The translations under genes and the position numbers were made by a program. Shown here piece after piece: positions 868-23,099 of a stretch of 64,000 nt of DNA. The notes beneath the pieces are model-generated. The model saw only the letters and a program-made list of their open reading frames with translations. It had not been told where the DNA came from and searched no databases. The DNA is from Mesostigma viride. Taxonomy: Eukaryota > Streptophyta > Mesostigmatophyceae > Mesostigmatales > Mesostigmataceae. The first letter of the stretch is position 1. Every line of letters begins with the position of its first letter. The DNA is taken from the NCBI GenBank assembly GCA_009746045.1, contig RPFO01000002.1, positions 2,572,506-2,636,505 on the forward strand, given 5' to 3'.

Positions 868-1869
868 TTGACCTTTTGAATGTTGGTCTGCGAGATGGTC
901 CGCGTTTCTAGTTCACACATCGCGCCTTCTGGTCACAGATTAGGCGCGGGGCATTGCCCAGAAATGCTGCTGGTTTCAAAATGCGCGATGAGACAGTATT
1001 TCAATTCAGTCATGCGTGGGTTTGGCTGAGTAACTGTTGCGCTTGGGCATACATGACGCCAATAGAGCATTGCGCACATAAGAAGCACTATGCCTAGTTT
1101 TTACACATGGCTTCAAGGTTGTTGCTTTCAGCAATCAGGATGGCTGCTTTGATGTTCAAATGTCCCAACCATGTCTCGAAGTAGTGGGATCGTGCCAATG
1201 ACAAGTATTAATCCTCCTTGGGCAATGAATTGAGAATGCTATGCAAATTGAAAGTGATCGCCTGATGGCGATTCTGGGACCCGGTGCTTTATGGCTGCAA
1301 AAGATGCAGCTACTCCAGATCCCCAAAGGCCCTAAGTAAGTAAGTAAGTAAGTACTTGCGTGTCATGCGCAAAGGCATGCCACGGAGTACTATGCTAATC
1401 TCATTAGAAAAATAATTACACAAAAGTTTAAACAAATATCGTCTGCATCATCCCCCAACCGTTAAGCACTACCAAAGGCCCTACTATCCCATGTTGTAGG
1501 CTGACTTAATAAATTAACACGTAACAGCGTTACGCGAGCATAAGTCCTCAGTACAGTCGAGTGGGATGGGATGGATGGAGCTAATTATCTAAGACCTAGT
1601 TACAGGGTTGTGGGCACCACGGCCCGAATTACTGTGAATGCCATTAATTTGTTAAACTCGTGCTCCCGTTGGGGAGTCACGGAGCATTAACCCCGATGTG
1701 AATGCCATACTCGGTCACACGCGGAGCCCCCACTGGATTGGAGGTGGTCTCAGTCTCCTTCATTACCACCTGCCACCTATCCTTGCGAACCATCTGCCTC
1801 CAGATTACAGACATGCCAGGGGGCTGCCCTGGCGTGAGCCCATTGCGACGTGGGTAACACAGATCCATG
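868..1869. other. Intergenic region, no gene seen
   Basis: About 1 kb after the adenosyltransferase gene without a recognisable coding region. It contains a short AAGT tetranucleotide run at about 1333-1355. No RNA gene or transposon end is evident. Confidence 0.5.
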
Positions 1870-3183: not shown

Positions 3184-3578
3184 CAGGTTGGCAAATACGT
3201 GCGTATTGTCAAAATAAATACGGCAATACGCGTTTTTTTGGCCCCGACGTACTATACGCGTATTTTGTCAGGAATACGGGATTTGGACTTGGAAATTTTC
3301 GAGGTTCGAGCTGGGGCAGCGCCAGGCCAACCGGACCGTGGCGCGGCGCCTACCTTTACCAAGATTTTCTACTATGAACTAGGCTTTTCGCAAGTCCAGT
3401 AATGACTTGGCAGTTGGCAAGCTAGCTGAAGCCTGAAATTACACGGAGTGAGTGCCAGCACGATGAAAATGCCAGCTGTGCTAGGAACGTGGTACTTGTA
3501 ACACAGCCTGTATCATAAATATTGCATGGCGGTGTGCCGTTGGATTTTGTCGTCAAGGGCAATCGCGTTTTTGCAGCC

Positions 3579-3756
3579 ATGCCAGAAAAAGGGCCAGAGC
3601 ATAATCTTGTAACGAAAAGAACTGTCTTAGTGAAGGATGCTCTGGGGGAAACGGTTTCGAAGCTGAAGTTTAGCTGCTCATTTTGCGGCCACAATTTTAC
3701 CAGTGGCGATGGCAAGCAGATTAGTGCGACCCGGATGCACGCACATTTTGCGGGCA
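3579..3756 (+). pseudogene. hAT transposase N-terminus with BED-type zinc finger, left part
   Basis: The frame carries a BED-like finger, CSFCG...HAHFAG, with two cysteines three residues apart and a His-x-His pair, ending in the AHFAG phrase common in hAT BED fingers. BED fingers bind the transposon ends. The frame is open upstream to 3522, but 3579 is the first ATG. It breaks at 3757 where Element 1 inserts. Joined to 12663 after removal of Element 1 and one GCA copy, the frame continues as AGIAGQGIDACPDA, as expected for this family. Confidence 0.8.
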
Positions 3757-3788
3757 CCCTACCAGCCATTTAGAATGTACTCCAGCAC
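3757..3788. repeat. Element 1 left terminal inverted repeat
   Basis: 32 bp starting CCCTACCAGCC, matching the complement of 12631-12662 with one mismatch. The GTACT pentamer begins 20 bases from the end, the same offset as in the Element 2 terminal repeat. Confidence 0.85.
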
Positions 3789-3829
3789 GCAAAATGTACT
3801 TCGTACCGAAGTTTGTCTTTTTATGCTGA

Positions 3830-4640
3830 AAATTGTCATGCATGATGTTTGCAACCAAAATAGACCTCGTACAAAGTTTGGTATCGATCGGACGTCATCT
3901 TGGTGACATTTGCTAGCAATAAAGGTACATTTTTGTCATTTTAAATTAAATTAAATAGTAATAAATAGGAAACAGTACTAAATCACGTCAAACCATCATG
4001 GATATTTGCAAGCAACCTAATTACCACTAGAATAGACCATGCACAAAGTTTGGGGTCAATCTGAACTCAAAATAGTGACGTTTGCTAGCATAAATACTGC
4101 ATTTTTTGCCATTTTCAAGCATTTTGCTCAGTGTAAGCTACTAAACAAAATCAAACTACGTCATAAAGCTATGAAATGTTGAAAGCAACCTAAACACCAC
4201 TAGATTAGACCATGGGCCAAGTTTGGGCTCTGTTTGATGTCAAAATAGTGACGTTTGCTAGCATAAATGGTGCATTTTTTGCCATTTTCAAGCATTTTGC
4301 TCAGTGTAAGCTACTAAACAATATCAAACTATGTCAGAAAGCTATGAAATGTTGGAAGCAACCTAAACACCACTAGATTAGACCATGGGCCAAGTTTGGG
4401 CCCCGTTTGATCTCAAAATAGTGACGTTCGCTAGCATAAATGGTGCAATTTTTGCCTTTTTCAAGCATTTTGGTAAGTATAGTTGCCTCAAACTAAGTCA
4501 GAAAACTGTGAATTGTTGTAAATAACCTGTTTGCCACTACATTAGACCATCCTCAACTTGTAAGGTCAGGCATAGGTAAAGGTAGTGACACTTGCTAGCA
4601 CTATATATGAGCATATTATGCCTCTTTTCGCATATACACA
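3830..4640. repeat. Tandem array of ~180-bp monomers in Element 1
   Basis: About four to five diverged monomers share phrases such as 'agtgacgtttgctagcataa', 'ttttgccattttcaagc' and 'aacctaaacaccactagatt', with a spacing of about 178-180 bp. Related monomers occur in reverse orientation in Element 2 (19640-20200). No gene is seen from 3789 to 5031. Confidence 0.8.
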
Positions 4641-5031
4641 TAAAAAATAACAAGACAATATTAAATCATGGCCTTAATACAAGGTGTGCAAATGCAAATC
4701 ACACCAGATCGGATGACCAATGATGGGTGGCTGCATGCCAACACATCTACCAGGCTGCAGGGTGAGAGGCCACATCGCTACAAGACAGGAATCCTCGCAA
4801 TTGCACACCGCTAGTACACTGCATACCCCAAGAGGATTTGGCTACAAGCCATAAAAGTTTGGCCATGCTAACACATTCTTCATCCAAGCAAACTGCAGCC
4901 TCTCCAAACTCAACTCATTGATTTAAATGCAACTAGGCCAGGCGTGCATGCTCTACTTGCCGATAACCATGAGTAAACTTGTGTACCACTTCATTCCATG
5001 CGCCGGTAGATGGCACCGTCTCATCTACCAG

Positions 5032-8000
5032 TCATCCCCGGCTCCCATTCCGCATCCTCCTCTCCCTCTCCCTCTCCCTCTTCCTCCTCCTCCTCCCCTC
5101 CCCCTCCCATTCTCCCTCCCCCTCTCCCTCCCCCTCTCCCTCCTCCTCCCCCTCCTCCTCCCCCTCTTCCTCCCCCTCTTCCTCTCCCTCTTCCTCCTCC
5201 TCCCCGCCTTCACTGTCACTGTGCACAGCAGGGACGGCATCGTCCATGTGGGTGCCATCACCTGCATTCACGGTGCCACCCTCCTGTGGAAAGAAGCGAG
5301 CGCGGCCAAATGCCTCGACTGGGTGTGGGCAGCCGCACACAAACTGAGTCACCTCCTCCAGGGCATGATAGTCCTCATACTGCCCATCAGCCCACATCGC
5401 CTTGATGAGCAGGTGACCTCCCCTTTCCTGAACCTTAGTGACCCAGCCATGGAAGCGCTCCCTCTTCCTCGCTGTCCCCGGAAACAGGGCACACAGGCGC
5501 ATCCCGATAAGCGCACGTGCTCCATGCTCGGCAAAGTAGGCATTGCAGTCATCCTTTGCTGCTGCCCTGGCGGCGGTGGCAGTCTTGTAATGCTCAAAGT
5601 CAATCTGCGGGTGCTCTTTCAACGCCGCCACCGTGGCAGCTGACAGTTTGCCGGTACTGATCAGCTCAGGCTGGTGCACCTCTGCCGTACCGCCCACTGT
5701 CCAGTGCTGCAGGTGTACATCAGAAATGGGGACCGTCATCCCTGCGCTGCCGCCACCTAATGTCACTCTAGAAAACTGGCCCGTCCACGTCGGTGCGTAG
5801 TAAGGAGAGGCGACAATGCTGTCACGCTCCGTGCGATCGCCTTCCAGATCAAGGACCTTCACCAGCATGTGTGGTGCCCACGGCATTCCCTGCCCGCAGG
5901 TGACGGCTGGCCGCTTAACAACGAGTAGGTCGCCGCGTCGTATGAGGCTTCCATTCACCTTGAAGGTGTGCCTGCCAGAAATCAGTGTGCGCAAAGCGGG
6001 CGTTGCCGTTGATGTGCTCCCTCGCGCAGCGGGCGCACATGCGCGGTTGATCTGCGCTTGAATCTCGCGGGCAGGGCAAGCGACGTGCGAGATGACTTGG
6101 TTTACGGGCAGCCTCAGTGCCCGTGTTGCCCGCGCAACCGACTGGTCGCCTGCAGATCGCAGCGGCAAGGGTACCGCCTTGTTCGCTTGCAGTTCACGCT
6201 GCTCTTTGAGCTTTTGCTCCATGATGTCGAACAGATTCTCGTTGTTGGCACGCACATCCTCCACGGACTTTGGCACCTGCTCAAACCATCTGTCCAGCAA
6301 CTGCTGCTTCTCAGCGGAGACGATGTCGGGAAAGAGGCCGTGAAGGCTAGCGCAGGTACGTCTCCTGGCACCGCCCTCGTCCCATTCAAAAAGCGGTGCT
6401 AGACCGGGACTTCCCTTGGGGGCCTTGCCACGCTCCATGAGGAGGCACCCATAGACAGGATCTCCCTGCGGGGTGTACCCAATGGGCGTGACCCCGTCAC
6501 AAGCCTCGCCGTTAGGCCCTGTGGGCTGCCACTTGTTCACCGGTGCATTTACCAACGTTTCTGATGCGGCTAGGCGCCAGCGGACATACACGTTCATATC
6601 CGGCCCTAGAAACACTTCGAGATCGAACACCTTCGAAGAGCGGTGCCTCTCCCTCTCGGCTTCGGTTGCTGGCTCATCATCCAAGTTGGCGGTGGCGCCC
6701 GCGCCCGCGCCTACGCCCGCGCCTTGGGTGGCGCCCGCGCCCGCACCCGCGCCTTCTCCCCCGCCCCCGCCCCCGCCTGCACCTGCGCCCGCGCCATGGG
6801 TGTCGCCCGCGGCTGGCTTCTTCGGAAATGCGTCCATCGATTTCACCCACCGGCCAAAGTCGCGGTGGATGCACCCATTCAGCCACGTTGTGACATCCAG
6901 TGCGGCGTCCACAATCTGCAAGCAATAGAACAGTCATGCAATAGGAATAATGCAATATGAATAATCATTAGTATCAACGATGCGTTCATGCAGACGTGAA
7001 CATGTGAAAAACAACAAGCATGCAACAACGACTCCAGCACACTTAGTAAATACTGCTCATAATATCTGTAGCACATGCAACATGGTTAAAACACACATGG
7101 ATGACCTATATGGCTGCACATGAAGTGTGCACATAGAGAAGACTAGAAATCCAGCATGATATCAAGAGCCATCCACACTAATATAAGTCTTACCGCAGCT
7201 TGGGGCTTCTTCGGGTTGAGTTGGCGCATCGAGTTTGTCGGGCCCTGCTCGTAGTAATGCTCAAATGCGATGCCAAGGCCCGCCAGCACATCATCAAATG
7301 TGATTAGTTTCACAGGTGGCCTGTCCGTCACCTTGTTCTTTAAGCCATTCATCCACCTGACGAACCAACCGAACCGTTGATCACAATCAATATGAGTGTG
7401 ACCAACGGGTAGCCTGCAGAAGCGGACACGGTCAAACAGTCCTCTCATGATGAGGACGGCGGCGAACCCCAGAACCTCGCGGTTCATGTTGTCGCCGCCA
7501 CCGTCCACCTGCATGACCAAAATTCTGGGCAGCCCGTAAGCCCTTATCTCAGGGTCCGTGGCACTGTTCCACGACTGTTGCTCGCAGATTTCAATGATGT
7601 GACGAACAAGGATGGTGACAGTTATCCTGCCCGAATTACCAGCCACAGCCTTGTTGATCACCCATGGTGCGACCACCCAGAAAAAAGTCCTCAACCCGTG
7701 TGCAATCGTACAAATCAGGGTGTAAGGTACGGTCAGGTCTCGCTTGGAAAGAAAGTCCTTAGGCGCCTCAGCCGCCGCAGGAATGTGAGTCCTCATGTGA
7801 GCGATAGCGTCCATGGACATGGAATGATAGTGACCGTTCTTACCATTAAAGCGCCTGACAAGAAACCCCTTCCTCTCTACATGAAAAAGCTCTTCGTGGT
7901 TGGCGAGTTCCTCCTTCCAATACTCCCATCGTTTAGTGTCAGTGTGACGGGCAGCATTGATGTTGTTGTTGATGTTGCTGCAAATGTTGCACACGCCCAT

Positions 8001-8855
8001 GATCTTCGTGCGAAACTTCTCCACGCGGACATAACTGGTTGCAACAACCTCCTCAAAGATGATCCGGAACAGAGTGAGAGACACGAAGGGAAAGTTGGCT
8101 TCCTTCTCGTTCTCCTTCACATAAGTGGCGAAAAGAGTCTGCTTGCATGGCTCCTCAATGAACGTAGTTCCGTTTGTCGGGTCATTCTGCACCGCGGGCT
8201 CCAACCACCGCCGAATCCACTCCTCCGCAAGCGCCCGTGCTTCCAGCCCCCTCTCCTTGCAGCCCCCGCGAGACTGCTTCTTGCCATGGTGGCCGCTTAC
8301 ATCTATGACGTGCTGTCCCTCGGCTCGCGCTTGGCGCTCATCAGCCACCTCGTGGACCGACGAGTGCCAAACGTGGTTGCTAATTTTCAGGCAGTGCCTG
8401 AATGCCGCCTCGCAAACCTGAAAGTGAAAAGGGGTCACAGACCCTGTGTTCTTATCCTTGACTCCCCCGTCGAGAACGAACCGGAAACCAGCGTCATGAA
8501 CGAACTTGTGACGAGTAGATGACGACATGGTCGTTATGGCGTCGTACCCCCCCTGGTGCAGCTGCTGCTTTATCGCCGCCTTCCTGTCCTCTTGCTTCCG
8601 CCCGGGCGCAAACCAGGCGCTCCGCAATGCCTGGAGATGTGATGTTTTAATGGGCTTCATGCACTCGTGGCCGCACTTACAGTCGACCGTCTCGTCGGTC
8701 ACTAGGCTGCCGGCATGGGTGCTGCCGCTTAGCATTTCAGCTGCGGACTTGCGCTTCCCATGGTGTCCCATCAGCATGATAGCGAAAGCCAGGAAGCAGA
8801 GAGCCACGATTATGTCCCAGCAAAGCCATAGCACACCTTCCGTTTCGACCGCCAT
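5032..8855 (-). CDS. DUF7869-like transposase, two exons, N-terminal membrane helix
   Basis: I read a 1,181-aa protein from the ATG at 8855. Exon 1 is 8855-7194, the intron 7193-6916 (GTAAGA donor, TTGCAG acceptor, phase 0), exon 2 6915-5032. From the N-terminus: a hydrophobic helix (about residues 8-30), a CxCx3C cluster (59, 61, 65), a Cys-x2-Cys region, then QVDGGGDNMNRE (about 449-460) and GHTHIDCDQRFG (about 485-496). The last two are the hallmarks of DUF7869-type proteins, which I take to be an RNase H-like DDE transposase/nuclease fold. Exon 2 has a Gly/Ala linker, a Tudor/Agenet-like stretch (FPG...DGQYEDYHALEEV, about 1020-1080), a long Glu/Gly tail and a basic end. The gene is divergent from the plus-strand gene across the palindrome. 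No frameshift is seen. The family link is recognised by motif; the catalytic role is inferred. Confidence 0.78.
6916..7193 (-). other. Intron of the transposase-like gene
   Basis: 278 nt on the minus strand, GTAAGA at the 5' end and TTGCAG at the 3' end. Both flanking frames are joined in phase 0: exon 1 ends ...PKKPQAA and exon 2 begins IVDAALD. Stops in the intron make read-through impossible. Confidence 0.75.
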
Positions 8856-8958
8856 GTCGGCCACTAGTCCGGATAGCTCAACGTACACCTGACCTTGACA
8901 CTAATCGCACAAACAGCCACAATTTTGCAAGCAAGAAGACATGGCTACCTCGGCATTT

Positions 8959-9285
8959 CATGAAATGTACTTCGTGAAATGCATTTCGTGAAATGTACTA
9001 AGGAACGTGATTGGCCGGCGTTCGCTCGCCAAATCTCGCAAAATGTACTAAGGCACGTGATTGGTCCCGCAAAATGTACTAAGGAACGTGATTGGCCGGC
9101 GAAGATTCTGTTTGCAACAATTAAAATTCCCTACAGAATCTTCGCCGGCCAATCACGTTCCTTAGTACATTTTGCGGGACCAATCACGTGCCTTAGTACA
9201 TTTTGCGAGATTTGGCGAGCGAACGCCGGCCAATCACGTTCCTTAGTACATTTCACGAAATGCATTTCACGAAGTACATTTCATG
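8959..9285. promoter_or_regulatory. Perfect 152-bp-arm palindrome between divergent genes
   Basis: Arms 8959-9110 and 9134-9285 are exact reverse complements around a 23-nt spacer. Each arm has three copies of a unit AAATGTACTAAGG(A/C)ACGTGATTGG or close variants, so CCAAT boxes and CACGT(T/G) sites face both genes. It begins 104 bp upstream of the minus-strand ATG and ends 77 bp upstream of the plus-strand ATG, so it very probably is the shared bidirectional promoter. The AATGTACT core also occurs in the terminal repeats. Confidence 0.8.
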
Positions 9286-9361
9286 GAAGCTGCGCAGAAG
9301 ACAGCCTGGAGGCAGAGGGAAAGTTCCTGTTCATCGTGAGTCGGGGTTAGCAATCACGGCG

Positions 9362-11700
9362 ATGTCGTCTGCCATGGCGGAGGAAGTCGGTAATGGCTGC
9401 CCTGCCGCGGTAGAGAACCTGGAGGAAGTAAAGATCGAAGAAAAAGCTAAGGAAACTAGCGCTGTGGAAGGGGGGGTGTTGGGCGACAACTCCAGACTTC
9501 GAAAGAGTTTTGTTCCGTGCCGGGGGGCTGTCGCTGGGTTGGAGCGCATGGCGCAGGATGCTAGGTCAGCCTCGGGGAGTGGCCTTATTAGCTCGGCCCC
9601 CGTGTTCAGCAAATGCCTAGTAAAGTATGGTGGCCACTTAGGGGTGCGTAGAATGGCTATGAATGCGGTGGCATCGAAGATGACGGCAAACAAAGGTGCC
9701 GTCATCAACGTCATTGACGTCGGTGGGGGGACGCCTGCAGGCGTGAGGCGACAGAATGGTGAGAATCAGCTGTACTTGCTGGATGCCACTATGCTGACAG
9801 AGTATACCAGCTTCTCCGAGGCGATTCATCTCGACGTGCGCAAGGGGCAGGTAACCGGAAAGCCGGGATATCCCGACATCTTCGTCGCCTGCGAAACTGG
9901 GAACGACACATTCGCAATCGGAGACTTGGTCACGTTTGATGGCCAGGCAGCTGTCGCTGACATGGCTTCTGCAATGGAGCTTGACGTGGCGACATTCTCC
10001 TCGGCCCTAATCGCTGGCCTGGTCCGTACGGGGGGTAAGAATGATAGAGAGGAGCAGTGGTTCTGCCTGGTAATGCCCCTTTTGAGCGATTCGCAGGGGT
10101 TTTACTCGCTGCCGTCCACATCACCGGGGAAGCAGTTTCCGGCAATGTGGTGTAAGCCGCGGTTGCTGGCAGTGGATCTGGGCGCCCATGGGGCAATTCG
10201 AGAAACTTCTCTGGTGGCCCAAGCTGTGGAAGCCGCCGCGGGAATATTCTATGACCCAAACTCTGCCATCAATGCATTAAAAACTACCTGCACGCAAGAG
10301 AAAGGCTGGAGTGTAAGTCTTGCACGAATGCTTTCCTCTTTGATATAAGTGCCTTTTCCGTGGATAGATTGGGCTCTTTTTATAATAAATAAATAAACAC
10401 ATGGTAAAATGTCCTTGGGTTGTTTTGTCCTGTATGCACCTCCTTGCCCAACATCCAGGCTGTCGGCTACAAGGTGCCAGCGTCTACACCCCCTGCCACA
10501 CTCCCAGCGCCGCCGCCAAGCACACCACTTCCTGCCTCACTCCCCTCGGTGCCCCTGCTATGTGCACCCCCTGCCGTATCTTCAAGGGCAGCTGAAGGGA
10601 CTCAGGACGACGACATGACACCGCACAACAGCAGCGGGGATGGCGGTGACAACAGGTCAGACAAGTCTTACGGCTCGCCACCCGAGAAGAAGGGGAGGGT
10701 CAAGCAGGAGCATGCACCAGTGAAGCGCGAGAAGCATGTTCGCACTTGCACCAATGCATCTAAGCATGCCATTCCACCTGTGGTTGCTGATGCTGCCATT
10801 CCCATGGTGACTGCTGGTGATGCCGACTTATCCGACTTGCGCTCGTCTCTGGATGAGGTCAAGAAGGAGTATGATGGCTTGAGGGAGGCAATGGCCGAGG
10901 CTCAAACCGATATCAAAAGCATCCTCGGGGGCGGTCGCACCAAGCCAAAGCGGGGGAGCCAGGCTGTCGAGTCGCTGCCCGCTCTGGCCAAGAAGCTTGG
11001 CTTAGCTGAGGGGAGGCTGGCCAGGGTGGAGCAGGAGCACGCAGCTATAAATGCAAAGCTGGCCACACTTCAAGGCACAGCTGCAGCACCAGCAACGGTG
11101 GGGAGCAGGAAGAAAAAGGGGCAGGAGGTTGTTGCTGCGCAGCAGTCACCACCAAAAGTTGAGGCGCCCGCTACCCCTGACATGCGAAAGGAGGTCAAGG
11201 AGCTGCGGGAGCGGGTGGAGCGACTGGAGCGCGAGTACCGTACTCCGTTGGTGGTCCCTGGTACTCCAGCCAGTGACTCCAGTCACGGGCTGGAGCAGCA
11301 AGGGCATCATTATTCAACACGGTCGAGTCCCCAGAGGGTGCTGCACTATGATGCAGCCATGGCTCAGCCCAGGGCTGTGACATATGTGGACGATCAGCGG
11401 GTGGTGTACACTGCTGCAGGAGGCGGATACCACAGGCAGGCAGCTCCCGTGACACTTCGCACGGCATTGGACCCTGAGGTTGAATACCACCGGCATGCAC
11501 CTCCAGTGACAAGCCGCTCGACATACAGTAACAGTGGGCAGGGCACTGCTTTCGTGCTAACCCCACCGGCAGGTCACCAGCAGTACTTCGACTCTGAATC
11601 AATCACGATGGTGCCTGTCACATCTCTCGCGCAGAACGTGGTGCACTTGCAGCCCGCTTATCCAGCAGTGGAGTATTCCATGAAGAAGCAACGGCGCTAG
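9362..11700 (+). CDS. Element 1 second gene: 730-aa protein with coiled coils, unknown function
   Basis: Exon 1 is 9362-10312, the intron 10313-10458 (GTAAGT donor, CATCCAG acceptor, phase 0), exon 2 10459-11700. The start is the first ATG after the palindrome. The N-terminal half (about residues 1-317) is a compact, mixed region I do not recognise (phrases GHLGVRRMAMNAVASKM and WCKPRLLAVDLGAHGA). The C-terminal half has a Pro-rich linker, a basic patch, two charged heptad-like stretches (EVKELRERVERLEREY among them) and a Tyr/His/Gln/Pro-rich tail ending in KKQRR. Element 2 carries a decayed relative of this C-terminal half at 20412-21029. Its position opposite the transposase suggests an accessory DNA-binding or regulatory protein, by analogy with two-gene CACTA and Mutator elements; this is inference. 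Confidence 0.7.
10313..10458 (+). other. Intron of the Element 1 plus-strand gene
   Basis: 146 nt with GTAAGT donor and CATCCAG acceptor. It joins ...KGWS to AVGYKVPA in phase 0, and in-frame stops lie inside. Confidence 0.7.
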
Positions 11701-12630
11701 ATTAGTAGCTTGGCTATCGATGCCATGCTTATCAAGGTCTATGAGGCATGGTGGGATGTCTTGTTAAGTGCTGCTCATTAAGGAGCACAGGTGAGCGATA
11801 TGTTTGCAGGATGCTGTACATTGTCTTACACCATATGTTTTGTGGCTCATGTTTTCGCGCAGGCATTGATTATACATGTATCATGCATCAAGAATGGCAT
11901 GACAACTAGGACTATGCATGTGCAAACTAAGAGTAAAGCTCACGGGCTCTTTCATCAAGATAGCCATGCATGGAATATGTGTGCCCACAGTCCATCATGG
12001 TTGGAAACCGGGTGTTGCAACTTGCCTTGTTCAAAACTCTCTTAATAAAAGGCAACAATATAATTTGTGGTTGGTGATGTTTGGTGAGTTTCAAGAGTTT
12101 TGCCACAATGAAGTTGCTATTTTGCCATGTGCATGTGTCATGATTGTGAGGCGCTTTCTATGGTCCCTGATTATATAGCTGTCTCACTTAATACTTGCTT
12201 ATCGCTACAAGATGAATTATGACAACACCAGTATGCATGACATGCTTGCTTGATTACATGTGATCGCAAGGCGCAATGGGGGGCAGGATTGCCTCATTAG
12301 TCCGGTGGCTGCGACAGTTTTCGTGTAGCGAATCTGGGCGCGAGCAGGGTCGGGGAGCCGAAAGAGGCGGCAAAACCTGTTTTTCAAGGGTCTGGAACAC
12401 TAGACAACTGCATAGCAGCCTTAAAATTTGTTCAAATGTAGTTCAATGTAGTACATTATAGTAAAAATGTAGTACAAAGTAGTACAAACTAGTACAATGT
12501 AGTATTTTGTAGCATATACTAGTTCAACTACCTCCAGATGAGATCCAGGGGCCATGGGGACACTTTTTTTGCAGAACTGAACTTGAAACAAGCAAAAAAG
12601 AGGAAACTTGGAAAAACTCAAAATGTACTT
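11701..12630. other. Right flank of Element 1, no gene; GTAGTAC repeats
   Basis: No convincing coding region. Between about 12425 and 12520 the motif AGTAC/GTAGTAC recurs many times (for example 'agtacaaagtagtacaaact'), forming the right subterminal array. The left counterpart is near 3773-3812. Confidence 0.6.
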
Positions 12631-12662
12631 GTGCTGGAGTACATTCTAAATGGCTGGTTGGG
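12631..12662. repeat. Element 1 right terminal inverted repeat
   Basis: Complement of the left repeat, ending GGTTGGG and followed by the GCA target duplication (12663-12665). Confidence 0.85.
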
Positions 12663-13056
12663 GCATCGCAGGGCAGGGCATAGATGCTTGCCCTGACGCA
12701 AAGATTGGGCATGCAGAAACGGAGGTTAGAATTCCAGGAGTTGTGGAGCAAGAAGGCCGGGCTGAAGGCGAGAAAGCAGCATGCAGCACATTAGCTTCAG
12801 GACAATGGTGGAGAGCGGCCACGGCCTTGCTTCGGGGTCGGCAGGTGCAGGAGATCCTCGCCAGCAGACAATCACGAGGTTTGTGAGCCCCATAAACGAA
12901 GAGGAATGCCATCTCCTGGTGGTGAATTTCTTTGTTGAGAATGCAATTTCCTTTCACGCGGCTCAGAGCCGCTCTTTCAAGGCGATGATTGCCTGCCTTA
13001 GTCAGTACAAAGGGCTGATCACTGCTCCCGGACTTGGCATGCACAATAAATCCTAG
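12663..13056 (+). pseudogene. hAT transposase fragment, right part
   Basis: Coding resumes after Element 1 with GIAGQGIDACPDAK. A frameshift near 12780 leads to the frame ending at 13056. The second part (QQTITRFVSPINEEEC...FHAAQSRSFKAMIACLSQY) resembles the region after the BED finger in hAT proteins, where Phe is followed by a segment that meets a 'F..mi' motif. The DDE catalytic core is absent, so this is a remnant of an internally deleted hAT. Confidence 0.68.
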
Positions 13057-13398
13057 CAAGGAATGTGCACAATGATGCAGTAATGGGTAAATTATGGTGG
13101 CAGGTTGGTATAGGGAATAAGTGCAAGGAATGTGCACATATTGCATTAAAAATTTATGGCAGGCTGGTGGGGAATAAGTGCAAGGAATGGTGCAGATTAA
13201 ATTATGCCTTCCACCATAATATACTGATCTCCATGCATAACTATTTGTTATTCCCCCTAAGGCCTAAACCCTAAAGGCCCATTCATAACCATGCTGCACA
13301 CTGCCACGTATTCTGGTGACGTATTCTGCCATGCTCCGCGTATAATACTCGTATTTTGAGGCCGACGTATTTGACGTACCGACGTATTGGCCAACCTG
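13057..13398. repeat. hAT right subterminal region and terminal repeat
   Basis: Degenerate tandem units with 'gcaaggaatgtgcac' and 'ggggaataagtgcaagg' precede the terminal inverted repeat. 'Acgtatt' and related motifs recur near 13310-13390, mirroring the 'aatacg' motifs at 3190-3290. Confidence 0.6.
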
Positions 13399-13401
13399 GA
13401 A

Positions 13402-14040
13402 GAAGCTCAATGCGAAGTACCTAGTGCACCTTTGGTTGCAAAAGGCAGAACTGGATCACTAGTTCACTACCACACTGTCAGTTATACTGGCAGGTCTGAA
13501 GGACAAGTGGGAGGATTTCAGGAAAGCAATGGCCTATGTGCAGCAATGCCTAGAGCCCTTTGCTGCTGCAGCCAAGGATGTTAAGGTGAAGCAGGTTAAG
13601 GGGGAGGAGGCCTCAGGTACGGGGCTCTCCAAAAAGCAGATGCAGTCGCTGGTGGCCCAGGTGAAGGCGGTATTAGGGGGGGATAAAAATAAAAACAACA
13701 AAACTGGGGGAGGTGGAAATAAGGGGGGGGGGGGGATAATAACAACAGAAAACAAAAACCAAGTGAGGGAGCTAGCAAGCCAGCAGGGGCTAAGCCAGCA
13801 GGGGGGGATAGGAGGTTGCCTCACGACCCCACCAAGCATTGCACTAGGTGCCTGTGTAAGGGGCACTTAAAGAATGATTGCTGGAAAGGCAAACCTGACT
13901 ATGGCTCTGACGTGGATGTTTGTCCTGGATGTTGGAAAACACGTCACCCCATTGCAGCAGGAGCGCGGTGCACGGCTCCAAGGCATAACAAAACCACGCC
14001 GGGGCGCTTCAACCGCGCGGGGGCGGCTGACCAGCAGGAG
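13402..14040 (+). pseudogene. Copia 1 gag with CCHC zinc knuckle
   Basis: Frame from WKKLNAKYLVHLWLQKAELDH, a stop at about 13460, then LAGLKDKWEDFRKAMAYVQQC, a Lys/Gly/Asn-rich linker and, after a frameshift, CTRCLCKGHLKNDC: a perfect C-x2-C-x4-H-x4-C nucleic-acid-binding knuckle. A second Cys/His cluster (CPGC...H...C) follows. Gag packages the element RNA. Runs of G at 13724-13734 are a likely frameshift site. Confidence 0.72.
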
Positions 14041-14219
14041 AACTGTAAGCTACCCTCACCATTTTTCACAAATGGTTACCTGCTACCTTCTATCTGCCAA
14101 GTGTTGCCTGAGTGTGATGATGTGGATTGGGATGTGGCATATGATATGACACTGTCACACATGCTTCGTGACCCCACCATAGCTTCTCTCAGTGCAGCAG
14201 CAGAAAAGGTAATCACGTA

Positions 14220-15290
14220 TGGTGCTCTACTGCAGAGCAACTGCACAAGGTTATGGGCCATGAGGCTGTGGCTGAAAGGCTAGCCAATAAAATACAAGGC
14301 CATGATCTGGAACAAATGTGCAGGCACGTACGTAAGCACTGTGAGCAATGTCAGCTATATGCTCCTAAACCCAGGAAATGGCATGTGGCCACACCACCAC
14401 TGGCGAGAGGCAAACTGGTTGGGGATGTTATACACGTGGTTAAGGACACGGTATACTACCTATAGTCATAAAGGATGCCTGGTCAAGTTTTGTGGTAGTG
14501 GAGCCCCTGCCTGGAATGGATAAAGAGCAGCTGCACAGAGCTTTACAGATAGCCCTGGCACGTTTTCACCCCATTGAAAAGGTCATGCTAGACCAGCAGT
14601 TCCTCTGCATTCAGGACAGGAATGATCTGCCCAAGATAGAAGTGTCTGGGGCTCAAGATCATGAACGTCAGGGGTTGGTAGAACGTACCATGAGAGCCAT
14701 CAGGGATGTGATAAGAAAAATGCCATCCAGGTTGGCTGACTCTGGTATATAGATAGCTATGCCGACAGCTAGGGCATGCATCTTGGGCAGCAGGGGTGAC
14801 TACCCAGCTAAACGCCAAACCAATAATGTCCTCACCTTTTGGGGAAATTACCCCAACTGGCCTTCAGTCAGGCAGCTATGCTTCAGAGGTGCACACTCAC
14901 TACAACACGCAAAGGCAGCACTTATAGCCAAGTTGCTGGCAAAGAAAGATAAAAATAATGCCAGGCCTGTGTTTGAAGTGGGGGACCATGTGTTGTTTTT
15001 CAGAGAGGCTGATAAAGGAAAGGCACAAGTGCTCTGCCAGATGGCACGGTCCATGCAGCTGTAGTCACTAAGCTTCATGAAGAAGGGACTGCAGTCACCA
15101 TACAACATGACAGAGAGCGTGTGGTCAGCAAGCATAGACTCAAGCTTTATTACCTACCACTGGCAGACGTGTCAGGGGTAGAACTCTTGGACATGGATTC
15201 AGAGCAGGAGTCTGGTGGATTGATCTCACCCAATGAATTGGCTAGGGATGTCATTGATGCAAGCACTATAGTACCACAGTAGAAGCTCCT
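14220..15290 (+). pseudogene. Copia 1 integrase
   Basis: The GAG-pre-integrase HHCC region (MGHEAVAERL...CRHVRKHCEQCQLY) is followed by core pieces GDVIHVVKD, MLDQQFLC and QGLVERTMRAIRD, holding the expected Asp, Asp and Glu. A C-terminal region (FEVGDHVLFFREADKGK) resembles the SH3-like end of integrases. It lies in at least three frames with stops (14281, 14463, 14750). Confidence 0.75.
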
Positions 15291-15506
15291 GTATTCCTCA
15301 GTAGTGCAGCCCCACTATACAACCCAATAGTCCACCTGGGCAGGAGGAAGGTGCACAGGGTGAGCAGCAGGTAGCCCCTCCCTCACACCTGGCCCTAAGC
15401 TCGTCTGGATTTGTACTAGAACACGCAATTTGTAGTTCATTTTGAAAAGTTGTATTTTATTGAATTTAAAGTTTCCACTTAAGTCTCTGAGGAAGGGGAA
15501 GTTCAT

Positions 15507-15722
15507 AGGACCCGTGACACCGTGACATCGTGACACCGTGACACCGTGACACCTCAAAATGCATATAAACACACATCTTTGCAGGTATGCAGTGATTATT
15601 AATGGGGATGATGTATTCAATGGGTCATTGCAAGTTTTACCTATGCTTCTGACACCGTGACACCGTGACACCGTGACACCGTGACACCGTGACACCGTGA
15701 CACCGTGACACCGTGACACCGC
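15507..15722. repeat. Element 2 left subterminal CACCGTGACA array
   Basis: Two blocks of the 10-mer CACCGTGACA (about 15510-15552 and 15650-15720) in this orientation. The right end carries the same 10-mer reversed (21740-22500), so the arrays are inverted relative to one another. Confidence 0.85.
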
Positions 15723-16002
15723 AAATACCACGTATACACCTTCATAATAATCCTAGTAGAGACATTCATTTCTCCATACATCTCGGTCATCTCACCATAT
15801 ATCGTCTCATGTTGATGTATTCTTGTTGTGCGTGTAGGTACCTTGCCGGGTCATGACAAGTTCAGCCATTCCTCGTTTATGCGGTCCAACGTCGCTTCAA
15901 TAGGGCATGTGATTAATATCTGGTAACAACTTATATATGTTGGCACGCCATGCGTCCAGGAATAGCTGTCTCACTTAATATGCATGCAAGCAACCATCAA
16001 AA

Positions 16003-16380
16003 TCACTTTGTCATGAAATCACTTGCCGGGATTTCAGTTTCTCCCTGGCCGGCCTGAAAAAGCTGGTTCTTTATAAACTCTTTCCGATCCGCAGGCTTCT
16101 TAGACCACATGTCGGTCCTCATCGTCCTGAGCTCCTCGAAATGCACGCTTCTCAAACAATGGCGGCCACAACCACAGTCCCAGTCCCTGCAAAGTGCCGC
16201 AGCCAAGGACGAATCCTGGGTGCATTTCGCCAACACGGCGGCTGCAGATAACCGGACCCCGCGCCTCGCCATCATATTGAACACGACGACGCCCAGGAGT
16301 AATAGCAAGAAGAACATTCCCAAAACCTGCCAACCCAGCGCCCCCGCACTGGGCTCCATGAAAACGCCGGGTCTCGCCAT
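16003..16380 (-). pseudogene. Element 2 transposase N-terminus, truncated
   Basis: From the ATG at 16380: a strong hydrophobic helix (GMFFLLLLLGVVVFNMM), then a CxCx3C cluster (CGCGRHC) and an Arg/Lys-rich helix ending KNQLFQAG. This is the same order as residues 1-100 of the Element 1 transposase, where CKCGHEC and IKQQLHQGG correspond. It stops at 16003 and no DUF7869 core follows, so it is a remnant, although this N-terminal part alone is open. Confidence 0.7.
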
Positions 16381-16622
16381 GGCTATGTCAACTGGGCAAT
16401 GTTGCAAACATCATTTGTCCCCCCCCTCCCCATCTATTTCTACGTTGGCAGATGGCAAACGTAGATCCCCACGCCATGTGGGGGGGGGAATAAAACATGG
16501 CAGACCGGGATGTCACGCCAGCCCGGTCTGCCCGAGTTGTTTAGCCCATGTTACCTCATTTGGCAGCGATCACCATCGCTGCCGCTCTCGTGAATTCGGG
16601 GTGAAAGCGCACGGTGTCACGG

Positions 16623-16907
16623 TGTCTCAACATGTTTGTAGTTGGTTTGTAGTTGGTGTCTCGGTGTCTCAGAAACTCGTGGTCCGCATTGAGTGGGTGT
16701 CACGGTGTCACGACATCTGATTGGCCCGGTTCAGATTCGTTTTTTTTTTAATTTTTTTTTAATTCGTTTTTTTTTTTTTTTAATTTGGGGCGAATCTGAA
16801 CCGGGCCAATCAGATGTCGTGACACCGTGACACCCACTCAATGCGGACCACGAGTTTCTGAGACACCGAGACACCAACTACAAACCAACTACAAACATGT
16901 TGAGACA
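16623..16907. promoter_or_regulatory. Perfect 117-bp-arm palindrome in Element 2
   Basis: Arms 16623-16739 and 16791-16907 are exact reverse complements around a 51-nt spacer made mostly of T and A runs. Each arm holds GTGTCACGGTGTCACG, TGTCTC repeats and a CCAAT box next to the spacer. It sits upstream of the minus-strand gene remnant (ATG 16380), the same place as the Element 1 palindrome, so I take it as a bidirectional promoter. Confidence 0.8.
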
Positions 16908-17393
16908 TGGGTGTCACAACCGATGTCACAAGGTGTGCAGCAGGTATTTCCTTTCAATCCCCGAGGAAATTATCAACCATTCATCGGCCATTCTGGTCAG
17001 GATAGCTAAGAATGGCTAGCGAATAAAAAGGCAGTATCGAGGCTGGAAATTTTAGTGTATGCTCCTAGGGTCATATATTACTTGCCGTTATTTTTTTTCG
17101 CCACAAATTCTGCGGAGTCCTTCCATTTTGGCGTCATTCACAGGTGGGTGCCTGTTTTGTCGCCGATTTTCTCTCGACCCCACCTACCTGCAGCAAAAAA
17201 TTTTCCCGATGAAAGTCGCCCTAACATCTGGTTTTTGACACTAACCGACGCAGTTTTTAGTTTTTAAGGCCTTGACCGAAGCACTTTTTTCATTACCGGC
17301 TCAGTTTGCTTTAACCGAGCTGGCGCGATTTTTAATCCAATTTCTAGGCTGGGCCAGGCGTCGCAGACCCGTAATCCGTTTTTAAGTGCTTTT

Positions 17394-17717
17394 GTGCCCG
17401 ATATCGTGTCTTTTGCAGGCGTTCTTGGCATCAAAGACGCCGTGGCGTCAGGGGCTAAAACGGACCTCCGCACGTTCGTTAACTGCGGCGAGCATGTCAA
17501 TGCCGCCAGCAATTTTTGCTGCCGCGTCTGTGAAACGATTGCGATGCAAGACCGTTGTCGACGTGACGGAGTGGTATGTGCACATTCAGGTGCGAATTTC
17601 TTCGCTGTTGAAACCCCGGCCGGTAGCAGACAAGTATTTCACCGTATCCCCTTTCCCCGAGTCTCTCTTTTCCGTCATGTTTTCATCTTACGGAAAGCGC
17701 GTATAAAGCATCAGTGA
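17394..17717 (+). pseudogene. Element 2 plus-strand coding remnant, unknown
   Basis: An open stretch with a cysteine-rich part (NAASNFCCRVCETIAMQDRCRRDG). A TTTTGCAG acceptor-like site precedes VLGIKDAV at 17420. A further open piece (YDGEPFARIRAVRLILERSDIKQ) follows at 17727-17850. I do not recognise the family, and no clear match to the Element 1 plus gene was seen. Possibly an exon of the second gene; low certainty. Confidence 0.35.
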
Positions 17718-17865
17718 GCGACAGTATGATGGCGAGCCGTTTGCTCGCATCAGGGCTGTGCGGCTTATTCTAGAGAGAAGCGACATCAAGCAGATTTTGC
17801 AGCCGGATGTGAGGGAGGGGCCCTGCTGGGGTGGGAATAAACTGCTGTGAGTGACCGATCCACTC

Positions 17866-18881
17866 CCTTCCTCCCTCCCTCCCTCCCTCCCTCCCTCCCT
17901 CCCTCCCTCCCTCCCTCCCTCCCTCCCTCCCTCCCTCCCTCCCTCCTCCCTCCCTCCCTCCTCCTCCCTCCCTCCCTCCTCCTCCCTCCCTCCCTCCCTC
18001 CCTCCCTCCTCCCTCCCTCCCTCCCCCTCCCTCCCTCCCTCCCTCCCTCCTCCCTCCCTCCCTCCCTCCCTCCCTCCCTCCCTCCCTCCCTCCCTCCTCC
18101 CTCCCTCCCCCTCTTCCCCTCCCTCCCTCCCTCCCTCCCTCCCTCCCTCCCTCCCTCCCTCCTCCTCCCTCCCTCCCTCCCTCCCTCCCTCCTCCCTCCC
18201 TCCTCCCTCCCTCCCTCCCTCCCTCCCTCCCTCCTCCCTCCCTCCCTCCCTCCCTCCCTCCCTCCCTCCCTCCCTCCCTCCCTCCCTCCCTCCCTCCCTC
18301 CCTCCCTCCCTCCCTCCCTCCCTCCCTCCCTCCTCTCCTCCCTCCCTCCTCCCTCCCTCCCCACCCTCCCACCCACCCCCCCACCCACCCAACTCACCCG
18401 TGGACCCACCCACCCACCCACCCACCCCCCACCCACCCACCCACCCACCCACCCACCCACCCACCCACCCACCCACCCACCCACCCACCCACCCACCACC
18501 CACCCACCCACCCACCCACCCACCCACCCACCCACCCACCCACCACCCACCCACCCACCCACCCACCCACCCACCCACCCACCCACCCACCCACCCACCC
18601 ACCCACCCACCCACCCCCACCCACCCACCCACCCACCCACCCACACCACCCACCCACCCACCCACCCACCCACCCACCCACCCACCCACCCACCCACCCA
18701 CCCACCCACCCACCCACCCACCACCCACCCACCCACCCACCCACCCACCCACCCACCCACCCACCCACCCACCCACCCACCCACCCACCCACCCACCCAC
18801 CCACCCACCCACCCACCCACCCACCCACCCACCCACCCACCCACCCACCCACCCACCCCCCACCCACCCACCCACCACCCA

Positions 18882-18969
<88 letters not shown>

Positions 18970-19064
18970 CTCACTCACTCACTCACTCACTCACTCACTC
19001 ACTCACTCACTCACTCACTCACTCACTCACTCACTCACTCACTCACTCACTCACTCACTCACTT
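17866..19064. repeat. Compound tetranucleotide array (CCCT)(CCCA)(CGCA)(CTCA)
   Basis: Four successive arrays on the plus strand: CCCT (about 17866-18372), CCCA (18373-18883), CGCA (18884-18969) and CTCA (18970-19064). Neighbouring arrays differ by one or two bases of the repeat unit. Long open frames over it (Pro-Ser-Leu, Pro-Thr-His and their antisense Gly-rich versions) come from the repeat and are not genes. Confidence 0.97.
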
Positions 19065-19640
19065 AGTAACTTGCACATGCACCACATGCGCAAGGAGGAC
19101 ACCAAGAGCTTCACCAACCACCGTCGAAAGCTTGGCTGTGATGCCAAGGGCAAGGGTGTGGGGGTGTCCATGTTGACACAGTGCATGAAGGCTGACAAGG
19201 TCAGGCAGAGATTGTGCAGGGAGGTGCCACTACCTCCTAGCTAGCGATACCGAGATGAGGGCGCGCAAACGCATCAGCGCCATGCCGCGTGTTGAGTAAT
19301 TTGCAACTACATTACTTGGCATGCTGTGGGTGCACGTGTAAAATGACCTTTCTAGCCATGCATGCGACAGCTGCCAATATTATGTTCAGCAAGCTCCTCC
19401 CTATAATAGAAATTGCGTGAGCATCCACATGGCCACATGTGCATATTGTCAGCTGTGTCTATATCAATGAACTTTTATGTATGTCTCCTGGACGGGTTGT
19501 CTTACATCACTCGTGAATGGTTTCCATGTTTTAGTGAGTCATCTTATTTGAGTTGACCAGATTGTCTCCTTGATATTCCACACTGGCAGTTTCGCATCCA
19601 TGGGTAAGAATTTGTAATGGAAACTGGCAGGTATGGCATT
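19065..19640. other. Short coding-like remnant, then no gene
   Basis: Right after the array a frame reads MRKEDTKSFTNHRRKLG...CREVPLPPS to a stop at 19244. It looks like part of a basic protein but is unrecognised. From 19245 to 19640 I see no gene. Confidence 0.35.
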
Positions 19641-20200
19641 GATAGCTCTACCAAATAGAACATGATCGGCCTGAATTTTTGTGGAATGTCTAAAATCATG
19701 ATGGCTAAGATGCATGCAAGTTTCCAGCCTCAACAGAGCACATCTTGTACGGAAACTGCACTGAAATGTGATGAAAAATACGAAAAACGTGCATTTTTGG
19801 TAACATTTGTGAGCAAACTGACATCAAATACCCTCTGATGGTTCTGAATTTTTGTGGAATGTCTAAAATAATGATGGCAAAGATGCATGCAAGTTTCCAG
19901 CCTGAACTGAGCACATCTTGTATGGAAACTGCCATGGAATGTGATGAAAAATACGAAAAACGTGCATTTTTGGTAACATTTGTGAGCAAACTGACATCAA
20001 ATACCCTATGATGGACCTGAATTTTTGTGGGATGTCTAGAATAATGATGTTTAAGATGCCTACAAGTTTCCAGCCTCAACCGAGCACAGCTTGTATGGAA
20101 ACTGCAATGAAATGTGATGAAAAATACAAAAAACGCACATTTTTGCTAGCATTTGGTGGCATTTTGTTACCAAATGCGGTTGGATGACCATCAGATCTTG
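19640..20200. repeat. Tandem ~178-bp monomers in Element 2
   Basis: Three monomers share 'cctgaatttttgtgg', 'atgcatgcaagtttccagcc' and 'aacgtgcatttttggtaaca', with a spacing of about 178-180 bp. In reverse complement they resemble the Element 1 monomers (tttgatgtca...tttgct...aaatg...tgca), so the two arrays are probably homologous. Confidence 0.75.
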
Positions 20201-20411
20201 TGTACAGTCATTAGTCATGAGTATCAACTTACTTGCAAACAGCCAGGTCAAGAACTCTTTATTTGCATATTAGAATGTATTTGTTTATATTAAAATCTGG
20301 AAAACTGCTAAAAATAGAAATGCCAAAAATAGGTCAGCTGAGGTCCGGTAAGTCCGGAAAGTTGCAATCCTTCTACTGGTGTCCTGAACATGCTACCTAC
20401 CAAGATCTAGC

Positions 20412-21196
20412 ATGTTTCGACAATATTTGCATCGTACAGGAGTTATAAGGCTGTTTTTTGGCACTTTCAGACCGTTGTGTGCGGAGCATGACGATGGAAC
20501 GGGCGTAGCACGGCCAACGGGGGAGGAGACTGAGAGCGCAGTTGATGCGGGGACACCCGTAGGTGATGAAGGGCGGGGGAATAAGAAATCGCACGTGTAC
20601 GTCAAGGTTAAGGCCCTGACCGAGAGGGTCAATGCTTTGGAGAACCAACGAAGAATGCCATCCACCCCAGCAAGTGCTGCACCCAGCTCCAGCACTGGCG
20701 TTGGCACGGAGCTTCGCCGGCCCGCTGCGCCTGCCGCGTTGGGGCAACGCGAAAGCTTCAGCGCGGCCCATGGCCAAGTGACAGGACTGCAACCAGCACA
20801 CCGTCAACAAGAGCCACGCGCGCGCGCAGTCGCAATGGATGGGCCGAGGCAGCTGGATCGGGAGGGGGAACCGTACGGCGAGCACGGTGTGTACGCGCCG
20901 TACGACCAAGGAATGCATGCCCAGCCTACTGCCGCTGGCAGGCAAGCGGCCAATGCTTATGTATACCATGCCGGCATGTACGATCCACAGCCTGGCGAAG
21001 GGTCGGCAGCTGATACACATCAGCCTTGAGGTCGCGGCACATTGCAACAAACCACCTACGTTGAGAACCCTGAGCCCGTGCAGCATTACAATGACGGCAC
21101 TTACCGTTATGCCGCAGCCCCCCCTCTAAGGAGATCTCCAAGGAAGACAAAGCCGAGGCCCCAAATCCCCAAGGCCGCCGGGGAGCAAGACTGGCA
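20412..21196 (+). pseudogene. Element 2 coiled-coil protein remnant
   Basis: An open frame 20412-21029 with a short heptad-like segment (VKALTERVNALENQRR) and a Gln/Pro/Tyr/His-rich tail. After a frameshift it continues to about 21196 (RRSPRKTKPRPQIPK). Composition and order match the C-terminal half of the Element 1 plus-strand protein (coiled coil, then low-complexity Tyr/His/Pro tail, basic end). No N-terminal part is attached. Confidence 0.55.
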
Positions 21197-21739
21197 ACAT
21201 CACTGTGATGAGTGATGAGGGAGGAGGTTATGCAGCCAGGGATTCTCATTTCATGGGTCATAGTCATTTTGATGAGCAAGGGACGTGGGCCTACAACGCC
21301 CACGTCCGGCCGGCCCCACAACCAGGCACATGCCCAGGCTCCACCGCGGAAAAGGCCACCCTACTCGCAAGATGTAGACGAGTCGGGGCAACACGATTAT
21401 TATGGTTCATATTAGATTGGGCATGTATGGTTTTGATACGGCATTTGCTTGGCACCAGATTCTGCATTAAAGAAAGCTGTATGCAAATCATTGTCAGGTA
21501 AGTTTAAGCTAATTTATACATTATTTTATCTTGCATTTGATATTAAAGAGGCAGAGAGACACAGTTGGCAGATGCAAGTTTGCTAGGCCATGTAATAGGG
21601 ATTATTGGTCATCCATCATATTCATAAATTTTCTTTTATTTATACATGGTTGCATAATACATTAATGTTGCGTTAATACTTTGTGGCACTAAACAACAAA
21701 ATCATGAAATGCTAGTGCTATCGTGTCATATTGTCACTA

Positions 21740-22500
21740 TCATGCTGTCACGGTGTCACAATGTCACGATGTCACGGTGTCACAATGTCACCTCATGTTA
21801 ATCAGTGCTTCTGGGCAATGTAATATCATTGTTGCAACCCCATGGGCGCCACATTACCTTGTGACACCATACAAAATCGTAAAATACTAGCGTTATGGTG
21901 CCATCGTGTCACGGTGTCACGGTGTCACGGTGTCACGGTGTCACGGTGTCACGGTGTCACGGTGTCACGGTGTCACGGTGTCACGGTGTCACGGTGTCAC
22001 AATGTCACCTCATGTTAATCAGTGCTTCTGGGCAATGTAATATCATTGTTGCAACCCCATGGGCGCCACATTACCTTGTGACACCATACAAAATCGTAAA
22101 ATACTAGCGTTATGGTGCCATCGTGTCACGGTGTCACGGTGTCACGGTGTCACGGTGTCACGGTGTCACGGTGTCACGGTGTCACAATGTCACCTCATGT
22201 TAATCAGTGCTTCTGGGCAATGTAATATCATTGTTGCAACCCCATGGGCGCCACATTACCTTGTGACACCATACAAAATCGTAAAATACTAGCGTTATGG
22301 TGCCATCGTGTCACGGTGTCACGGTGTCACGGTGTCACAATGTCACCTCATGTTAATCAGTGCTTCTGGGCAATGTAATATCATTGTTGCAACCCCATGG
22401 GCGCCACATTACCTTGTGACACCATACAAAATCGTAAAATACTAGCGTTATGGTGTCACGGTGTCACGGTGTCACGGTGTCACGGTGTCACGGTGTCACA
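21740..22500. repeat. Element 2 right subterminal array with higher-order structure
   Basis: Five blocks of the 10-mer TGTCACGG(T)G of different length (longest about 21904-22000, shortest about 22305-22340) are separated by a near-identical ~118-bp unit that contains 'atgttaatcagtgcttctgg' and 'aaatcgtaaaatactagcg'. The whole unit is repeated four times. Confidence 0.9.
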
Positions 22501-22629
22501 ACATGTTGGGACAATAACCTACATGCTTTGGACTTACGAGAGGCCCTAAATAACAAAGTTTGAAAAATCTCAATTTGTAGTAGTGTTCTAGTACAAATCC
22601 AGACGAGCTTAGGGTGGAGGAGTCACAAT

Positions 22630-23075
22630 TGAGAGAGCAGATCCTGTCGTCCCCAGGAAGTCATTTGCTGAGATTCTTAAGGCCTTCTTGCACAAGGCAC
22701 ACAGCACTAAAGCAGTTGTGGCAACAGGTACAGCACAGGTAAATGCTGTAGGGGATGCAGGTCAAGATCCTAGTATTTTGGCTGTAGACACCCAAGCACA
22801 GGTGAGTATCATCAGTGCAGCAGCTGTATCTGGTCTGAAAATGAAGGCCTCACCATGGGCTAGAGTGTCAGATTTTTCAGGCAAAACAAAAATGCAGGTC
22901 AAAGGTCAGGTGAGCATTCAAATCTTGGGTATGCCCACTCCATTTCAGGTGGTAGAGGGTTACTCAGGGAATGCCCTGTTAGGGGAACCTTTTGTATCTT
23001 ACCTTGGTGTTGTCATCTCAGCTGGGAGGTTGAGTGTGCATGGCAGGGGTAGGAAAGGTACCTCTAGATCATTTT
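22630..23075 (+). pseudogene. Copia 1 aspartic protease, DTQ active site
   Basis: The frame has ILAVDTQAQVSIIS, SDFSGKTKMQVKGQVSIQI and ALLGEPFVSYLGVVI, in the order of a retropepsin: flap region and the second hydrophobic-Gly motif included. The catalytic triad is DTQ where DTG or DSG is normal. Copia 2 has DTN at the same place. It lies after the integrase. Confidence 0.68.
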
Positions 23076-23099
23076 AAAATCCCTTTGAGCCAGATTAGC

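Follow-up and report, generated by a model that had tools for sequence, protein, structure and literature searches.

We focus here on two DNA transposons in a window of 64,000 nucleotides from the streptophyte Mesostigma viride (assembly GCA_009746045.1, contig RPFO01000002.1, positions 2,572,506 to 2,636,505 of the forward strand); the window is the whole stretch that was analysed, and coordinates are counted from its first letter. Element 1 (3757-12662) is bounded by 32-bp inverted ends that are complementary at 31 of 32 positions, with GCA duplicated at both sides, while Element 2 (15393-22614) has 32-bp ends matching at 32 of 32 positions, with TGG duplicated at both sides. These coordinates, ends and duplications had been proposed in an earlier, sequence-only reading and hold on re-measurement. 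We consider it highly probable that Element 1 is an autonomous transposon that moved very recently, that Element 2 derives from a sister family, and that the system comprises a DUF7869 transposase, an accessory second protein and a palindrome that serves as promoter. The features of Element 1, including its terminal inverted repeats (TIRs), are as follows; L030, L031 and L032 are related genomic loci described below.

3754..3756: target duplication, left (GCA)
3757..3788, plus strand: left TIR, 32 bp, CCCTACC...CAGCAC, 31/32 complementary
3792..3800, plus strand: end motif AAATGTACT, directly inside the left TIR
3854..4600: ~173-bp tandem monomers, left subterminal region
5032..6915, minus strand: putative transposase exon 2, acidic C-terminus; stretches 40-45% homologous in L030, L031 and L032
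7194..8855, minus strand: putative transposase exon 1, first ATG at 8855
8956..9111: central palindrome, left arm, 156 bp, 99% complementary to the right arm; four AAATGTACT motifs
9133..9288: central palindrome, right arm
9362..10312, plus strand: second gene, exon 1; residues ~85-330 homologous in L030, L031 and L032
10459..11700, plus strand: second gene, exon 2, with the coiled-coil-like stretch VKELRERVERLEREYR
12621..12629, plus strand: end motif AAATGTACT, directly inside the right TIR
12631..12662, minus strand: right TIR, 32 bp; CCCAACC in the window copy
12663..12665: target duplication, right (GCA)

The splice models give products of 1,181 aa (transposase) and 730 aa (second gene). 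Exon 1 of the transposase carries a hydrophobic helix, a CxCx3C motif and the DUF7869 core; for exon 2, no Pfam match over the cut-off was found. The splice models, the N-terminal helix, the CxCx3C motif and the central palindromes of both elements had all been part of the sequence-only reading and were confirmed. The right tip of the window copy differs by a single base change, reading CCCAACC where the 10 other full-length copies read CCCTACC. Element 1 splits an open frame with a CxxC zinc-finger-like stretch (3518-3756 and 12666-12886), which the sequence-only reading took for a hAT zinc-finger gene. The frame becomes continuous when the flanks are joined; as had been claimed, excision with one GCA restores an open frame, here through AHFAGIAGQGIDACPDA.

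Scanning the window for paired ends (CCC(T/A)A...T(T/A)GGG, spacing 300-15000 bp, at least 20/26 identity) yielded five pairs, of which Elements 1 and 2 alone are bordered by an identical 3 bp on either side, and no pairs on 20 mononucleotide shuffles. In the genome as searched (440 Mb, 2243 contigs), a query made of Element 1's first 301 bases gave 293 candidates, the best 40 of which were scored; counting the window's own, at least 40 places align along the entire query at 99-100%. From these 40 places, 20 were retrieved (~10 kb each, the window's own place left out): both ends were found at 15 of the 20, with an exact 3-bp duplication in 15/15. Adding Elements 1 and 2 and the related elements L030, L031 and L032, an exact 3-bp duplication accompanies all 20 elements with both ends, at 20 different flanks, and never extends to 4 bp. 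L024 was left out of this count; it has a left flank in common with L019, and the two may be one insertion assembled twice. TIRs and a fixed 3-bp duplication at dispersed sites, seen in 20/20, place the elements among the TIR (class II) DNA transposons. The sequence-only reading had named the absence of other such paired-end copies as an observation that would overturn it; they are present in number.

The copies furthermore speak to the age of the movement. Eleven full-length copies of Element 1 (the window's and 10 others), at eleven sites, differ by 5 single-nucleotide polymorphisms in total, a mean of 0.93 per pair over 8.9 kb, besides 22 indel columns, and both gene models are open in 11/11 (1181-1187 and 730 aa). 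Among the best 78 of 1382 candidates scored for the 554-residue exon-1 protein, 14 places encode it identical, full-length and stop-free, and the remaining matches lie at 40-53%, plus one partial match at 91%. The near-identity of the 11 copies with open genes thus argues, from the sequences themselves, that Element 1 has moved very recently. A second copy group (L019, L020 and L022-L028; nine loci) has retained the left 3 kb (96-97%) as well as the palindrome region, and leaves element positions ~3563-4596, most of exon 1, unmatched. Its self-complementary centre spans ~615 bp (97-98%) in 8/9 loci (L019, L020, L022 and L024-L028), compared with 333 bp in Element 1; in L023 the stretch was not found by a self-search that likewise failed to pick up the 333-bp palindrome known from Element 1 and its copies. 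The second group looks non-autonomous, and elements without the catalytic part are likely mobilised in trans.

Element 2 is of a different kind, and its features run as follows.

15390..15392: target duplication, left (TGG)
15393..15424, plus strand: left TIR, 32 bp
16003..16407, minus strand: putative transposase N-terminal remnant, hydrophobic helix and CxCx3C
16623..16739: central palindrome, left arm, 117 bp, 100%
16791..16907: central palindrome, right arm
17022..20604: stretch without an L030 match over 150 bp; microsatellites and 173-bp monomers
20605..22614, plus strand: right part, 95-96% identical to L030; second-gene coiled-coil end, GTGTCACG octamer arrays, right TIR
22615..22617: target duplication, right (TGG)

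Element 2 retains the ends, the palindrome, the transposase N-terminus and the coiled-coil end of the second gene; it is without the catalytic part, and both genes are incomplete. Three of its blocks (1-633, 634-1629 and 5213-7222, numbered within Element 2) align to L030 at 95-98%, and by this comparison Element 2 is best classed as a non-autonomous derivative that arose by deletion within the L030 family, sister to the Element 1 family. The sequence-only reading had made Elements 1 and 2 copies of one two-gene family with a common satellite: the CCCTA ends and 3-bp duplications stand, and the single family is rejected, Element 2 grouping with L030. Satellite monomers (~173 bp) are present in both elements; they lie in different places and do not match each other, so that a common satellite is rejected too. 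Within Element 2, at window positions 17860-19060, four-base microsatellites (CCCT, CCCA, CGCA, CACT) follow one another for ~1.2 kb.

Six loci of other families (L029-L034) were retrieved at 10 kb each, with 1.5 kb added later. Three of them hold complete elements, and L033 has a left end only.

L030: 9029 bp, ends 32/32, duplication ATG, complete
L031: 9051 bp, ends 31/32, duplication TTG, complete
L032: 10886 bp, ends 32/32, duplication TTT, complete

L030 and L031 resemble each other closely (~82% across the transposase DNA), so that three well-separated lineages are present when Element 1 is counted in. In all three complete elements the transposase lies on the minus strand, at 42-45% to Element 1 in exon 1 and 40-45% in exon 2. 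Their plus-strand gene is a homologue of the 730-aa protein over residues ~85-330, at 24-31% (E 6e-12 to 6e-18). The second protein retains a short coiled-coil-like stretch, VKELRERVERLE / VKALTERVNALE / IAALTARVDSLE / LAALRARVDALE, and may be a TNPA-like helper. A further observation concerns L034, where a 1401-codon open frame (1614-5816, minus strand) includes a DUF7869 transposase exon, and homology switches frame near residue 504.

The ends and the centre of the elements share sequence. Inside the TIR, left ends read GCAAAATGTACT, GCAATTTGTAGT, GCCATTTGTACT or GCATTTTGTACT depending on family, and a comparable motif at the right ends keeps the absolute orientation of the left one. The TIR is thus common to both ends while the inner sequence differs, and the machinery could distinguish left from right. 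The best inverted intergenic arm measures 153 bp in Element 1, where eight other stretches score 6-7, 117 in Element 2 and L030, 92 in L032, 96 in L029 and 108 in L034; a palindrome is present in 6/7 sequences, not all of them independent. Arm 8-mers cluster at both ends and are nearly absent between in Elements 1 and 2, L030 and L032. In Element 1, AAATGTACT occurs six times on the plus strand, once near each end and four times in a single palindrome arm, and its complement four times, all in the opposite arm; TTTGTAGT in Element 2 and L030 is confined to the terminal 900 bp and the palindrome. The motif that L032 has in common between ends and palindrome is a GTGTCAC repeat; in L029 a different repeat, GGTGCAAC, is present both in the palindrome and in an array on the right-hand side; and TTTGTACT, which marks the ends of L031 and L032, was not found in the intergenic stretch of either. 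En/Spm TNPA, according to an excerpt of PMC2613891, regulates the element that encodes it and binds subterminal repeats. The recurrence of end motifs and this analogy suggest that the palindrome is an autoregulated two-way promoter bound by the element's own proteins.

Five transposases were compared (Element 1, L029, L030, L031 and L032), and DUF7869 (PF25273) matches all five (best E 2.2e-14); the window protein scores 49.5 bits against a curated cut-off of 26, over 64 residues of the 192-position model. Outside the N-terminus, nonsynonymous and synonymous divergence (dN, dS) are 0.10 and 0.56 for L030/L031 (dN/dS ~0.18) and 0.06 and 0.24 for L029/L030 (~0.25), and the transposase is under purifying selection. 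The DUF7869 protein is likely a DDE/D transposase, for which we propose D349, D451 and D492 as catalytic residues in Element 1. Searches of a large protein set (7992, 3611 and 7996 candidates; limits E 0.001, 1 and 0.01) and of viral contigs found no relative, nor did a solved-structure search, which gave one keratin match (E 1.2).

Similarity to bacterial ISAzo13 appears at the level of profiles. An NCBIfam scan gave sub-threshold ISAzo13 matches in 3/5 transposases (best E 0.077). Profile comparison with seven ISAzo13 sequences gave E 0.0013 and probability 19 untrimmed, and E 4.7e-4 and score 38.0 trimmed, a score that 0/200 column shuffles reach (maximum 27.6), with 19.3 for the reversed control; with 87 ISAzo13 sequences, E was 1.1e-4, probability 56 and score 42.6, against a maximum of 28.7 in 60 column shuffles. 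The alignment spans DGGGDN...LPxG, a permissive alignment also puts D349 near ISAzo13 VISVDT, and D492 lies, by eye, opposite the glutamate of ISAzo13 IEH. Zator resembles ISAzo13 and both make 3-bp duplications (PMC10045372, in excerpt), in agreement with the duplication found here independently. A remote kinship to bacterial ISAzo13 and eukaryotic Zator is perhaps what these similarities reflect.

Several observations weigh against the reading developed so far. First of all, the right end was not located in 10 kb at 5/20 retrieved Element-1 loci (L010, L023, L024, L025 and L026), and CCCTA-type ends were not found in the retrieved stretches of L029 and L034. Second, the palindrome arm of L031 is only 26 bp, and the exon-2 homology of L032 is spread over more than one frame, so that its transposase may have an extra intron or damage. 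Third, the ISAzo13 link has an hhalign probability of 19-56%; single ISAzo13 sequences score 27.1 and 16.0 against 19.5, 18.5 and 14.5 for the controls IS1634, IS21 and IS6, the lower value falling under two of the three control families; and PF07592, the ISAzo13 DDE domain, was not listed at E <= 1, the listing threshold of all Pfam negatives on proteins given here, for any of the five transposases. Finally, AlphaFold2 without an alignment gave a predicted local distance difference test (pLDDT) score of 36 for exon 1 and 39 for its core, values too low to support an RNase-H fold.

Alternative classifications can be weighed on the same evidence. The remote profile similarity around DGGG-N ... 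PPG and the 3-bp duplications could mean that the elements belong to the Zator superfamily, itself ISAzo13-like, with a transposase diverged beyond PF07592; we hold this to be unlikely, since PF07592 gives 458 and 346 bits for two ISAzo13 proteins and is listed for none of the five transposases, which moreover have D, not E, where the third catalytic residue is proposed (by eye). The elements also add an exon-2 extension, a hydrophobic N-terminus, a second gene and the palindrome. Zator, which was compared here by its description, is not known for a two-gene layout, a hydrophobic helix or a palindrome.

A divergent CACTA/EnSpm (CMC) element, with a TNPD-like transposase and a TNPA-like protein, would account for the 3-bp duplications (within the 2-5 bp of that group), the subterminal repeat arrays, the second, putatively DNA-binding gene and the recurrence of end repeats in the intergenic region, for which the TNPA behaviour cited above offers a precedent; an invariant C289-x2-C292 also lies upstream of D451 in the transposase alignment. 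The ends read CCCTA..TAGGG, not the CA..TG of most CMC elements, which alone is not excluding: as excerpted, PMC1636069 reports animal TRC elements that start CCC and, in Tribolium, a CACTA-related one that begins CCCTAG within a 27-bp inverted repeat. The ends, which the sequence-only reading had not matched to a described family, are therefore not unique in their CCCTA start. On the other hand, the TRC elements have 2-bp direct repeats, not 3-bp ones, and SmTRC1 has a Transposase_21 domain (same excerpt), while the proteins here carry DUF7869 and no Transposase_21 or EnSpm model was listed; their divergent genes flank a palindrome. CMC transposases are marked by C(2)C and H(3-4)H between the second D and the last acidic residue (PMC12730594, in excerpt), and these are absent between D451 and D492 (by eye, the triad being itself inferred). 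The CCCTA-ended Tribolium element raises the probability of a CACTA kinship; overall, we rate such kinship as improbable.

Pfam-A includes KDZ, Plavaka, CACTA and Harbinger transposase models. The profile search that the sequence-only reading had suggested bore out DUF7869 and listed none of KDZ, Plavaka or CACTA. KDZ and Plavaka, whose duplications measure 7 bp in Kyakuja, 8 bp in Zisupton and 2-3 bp in Plavaka, were rejected on this absence and on their different ends; PIF/Harbinger was rejected as no Harbinger transposase or Myb/SANT model was listed for the transposase exons or the second gene. That DUF7869 and the second gene are passengers on ends mobilised by another genomic enzyme, as the copies without the catalytic part might suggest, is very improbable, given that 4/4 complete elements (Element 1, L030, L031 and L032) keep both genes in a single layout and that the transposase is under purifying selection.

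In the favoured reading, an autonomous Element 1 with a DUF7869 transposase, the enzyme would pair the two 32-bp ends, catalyse a cut-and-paste reaction and insert the element into cuts staggered by 3 bp. The second protein would be an accessory DNA-binding or oligomerising factor. The central palindrome between the divergent genes would be a two-way promoter open to binding by proteins of the element itself, and such binding would couple expression to occupancy of the ends.

The N-terminus of the transposase adds a further feature. At the start of all five proteins, hydropathy averages 2.5-3.05 over 19 residues, and K/R comes next; the highest stretch further on reaches 1.1-1.65. The ratio of nonsynonymous to synonymous differences (pN/pS) is 0.43-1.17 in the helix columns and 0.24-0.53 in the rest, and the helix sequence varies freely while its hydrophobicity is maintained; a neutral simulation reaches the observed hydropathy in 0.4-2.1% of runs (P 0.004-0.021; four pairs, non-independent). 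Element 1, L029, L030 and L032 have an in-frame stop no more than 100 nt before the first ATG, L031 has none there, and a Met in ATGG context stands at the helix edge in 5/5. We put forward, tentatively and with more doubt than belief, that these elements form a superfamily-level group whose transposase exists in two forms, one membrane-anchored and one soluble from the second ATG. The K/R after the helix would predict a body that faces the nucleoplasm, for instance at the inner nuclear membrane, and the anchor would tether the transposase, perhaps together with the element it binds, to the nuclear envelope, or hold it in an inactive state before its release. The palindrome would sense free transposase.

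Elsewhere in the window, open reading frames at 22688-24593, beside Element 2, are presumably pieces of a Copia-type retrotransposon, and one at 43-867 resembles what we take to be a cobalamin adenosyltransferase. A large inverted duplication (38594-39897 and 45028-46327) is 97.4% identical over ~1.3 kb.

DUF7869 here sits in complete elements with defined ends; a literature search, which did not cover Repbase, found no paper that names this domain or describes it in complete elements. These elements probably represent a DDE/D cut-and-paste lineage, for which superfamily rank is possible and which is perhaps allied to ISAzo13/Zator. A Pfam domain of unknown function thereby gains a likely role as transposase in complete, recently mobile elements. 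If the membrane helix is real, one may ask by what means a DNA transposase would be attached to a membrane, and to what purpose. With both ends delimited, one copy intact and non-autonomous partners occurring naturally, the elements lend themselves to a direct test.

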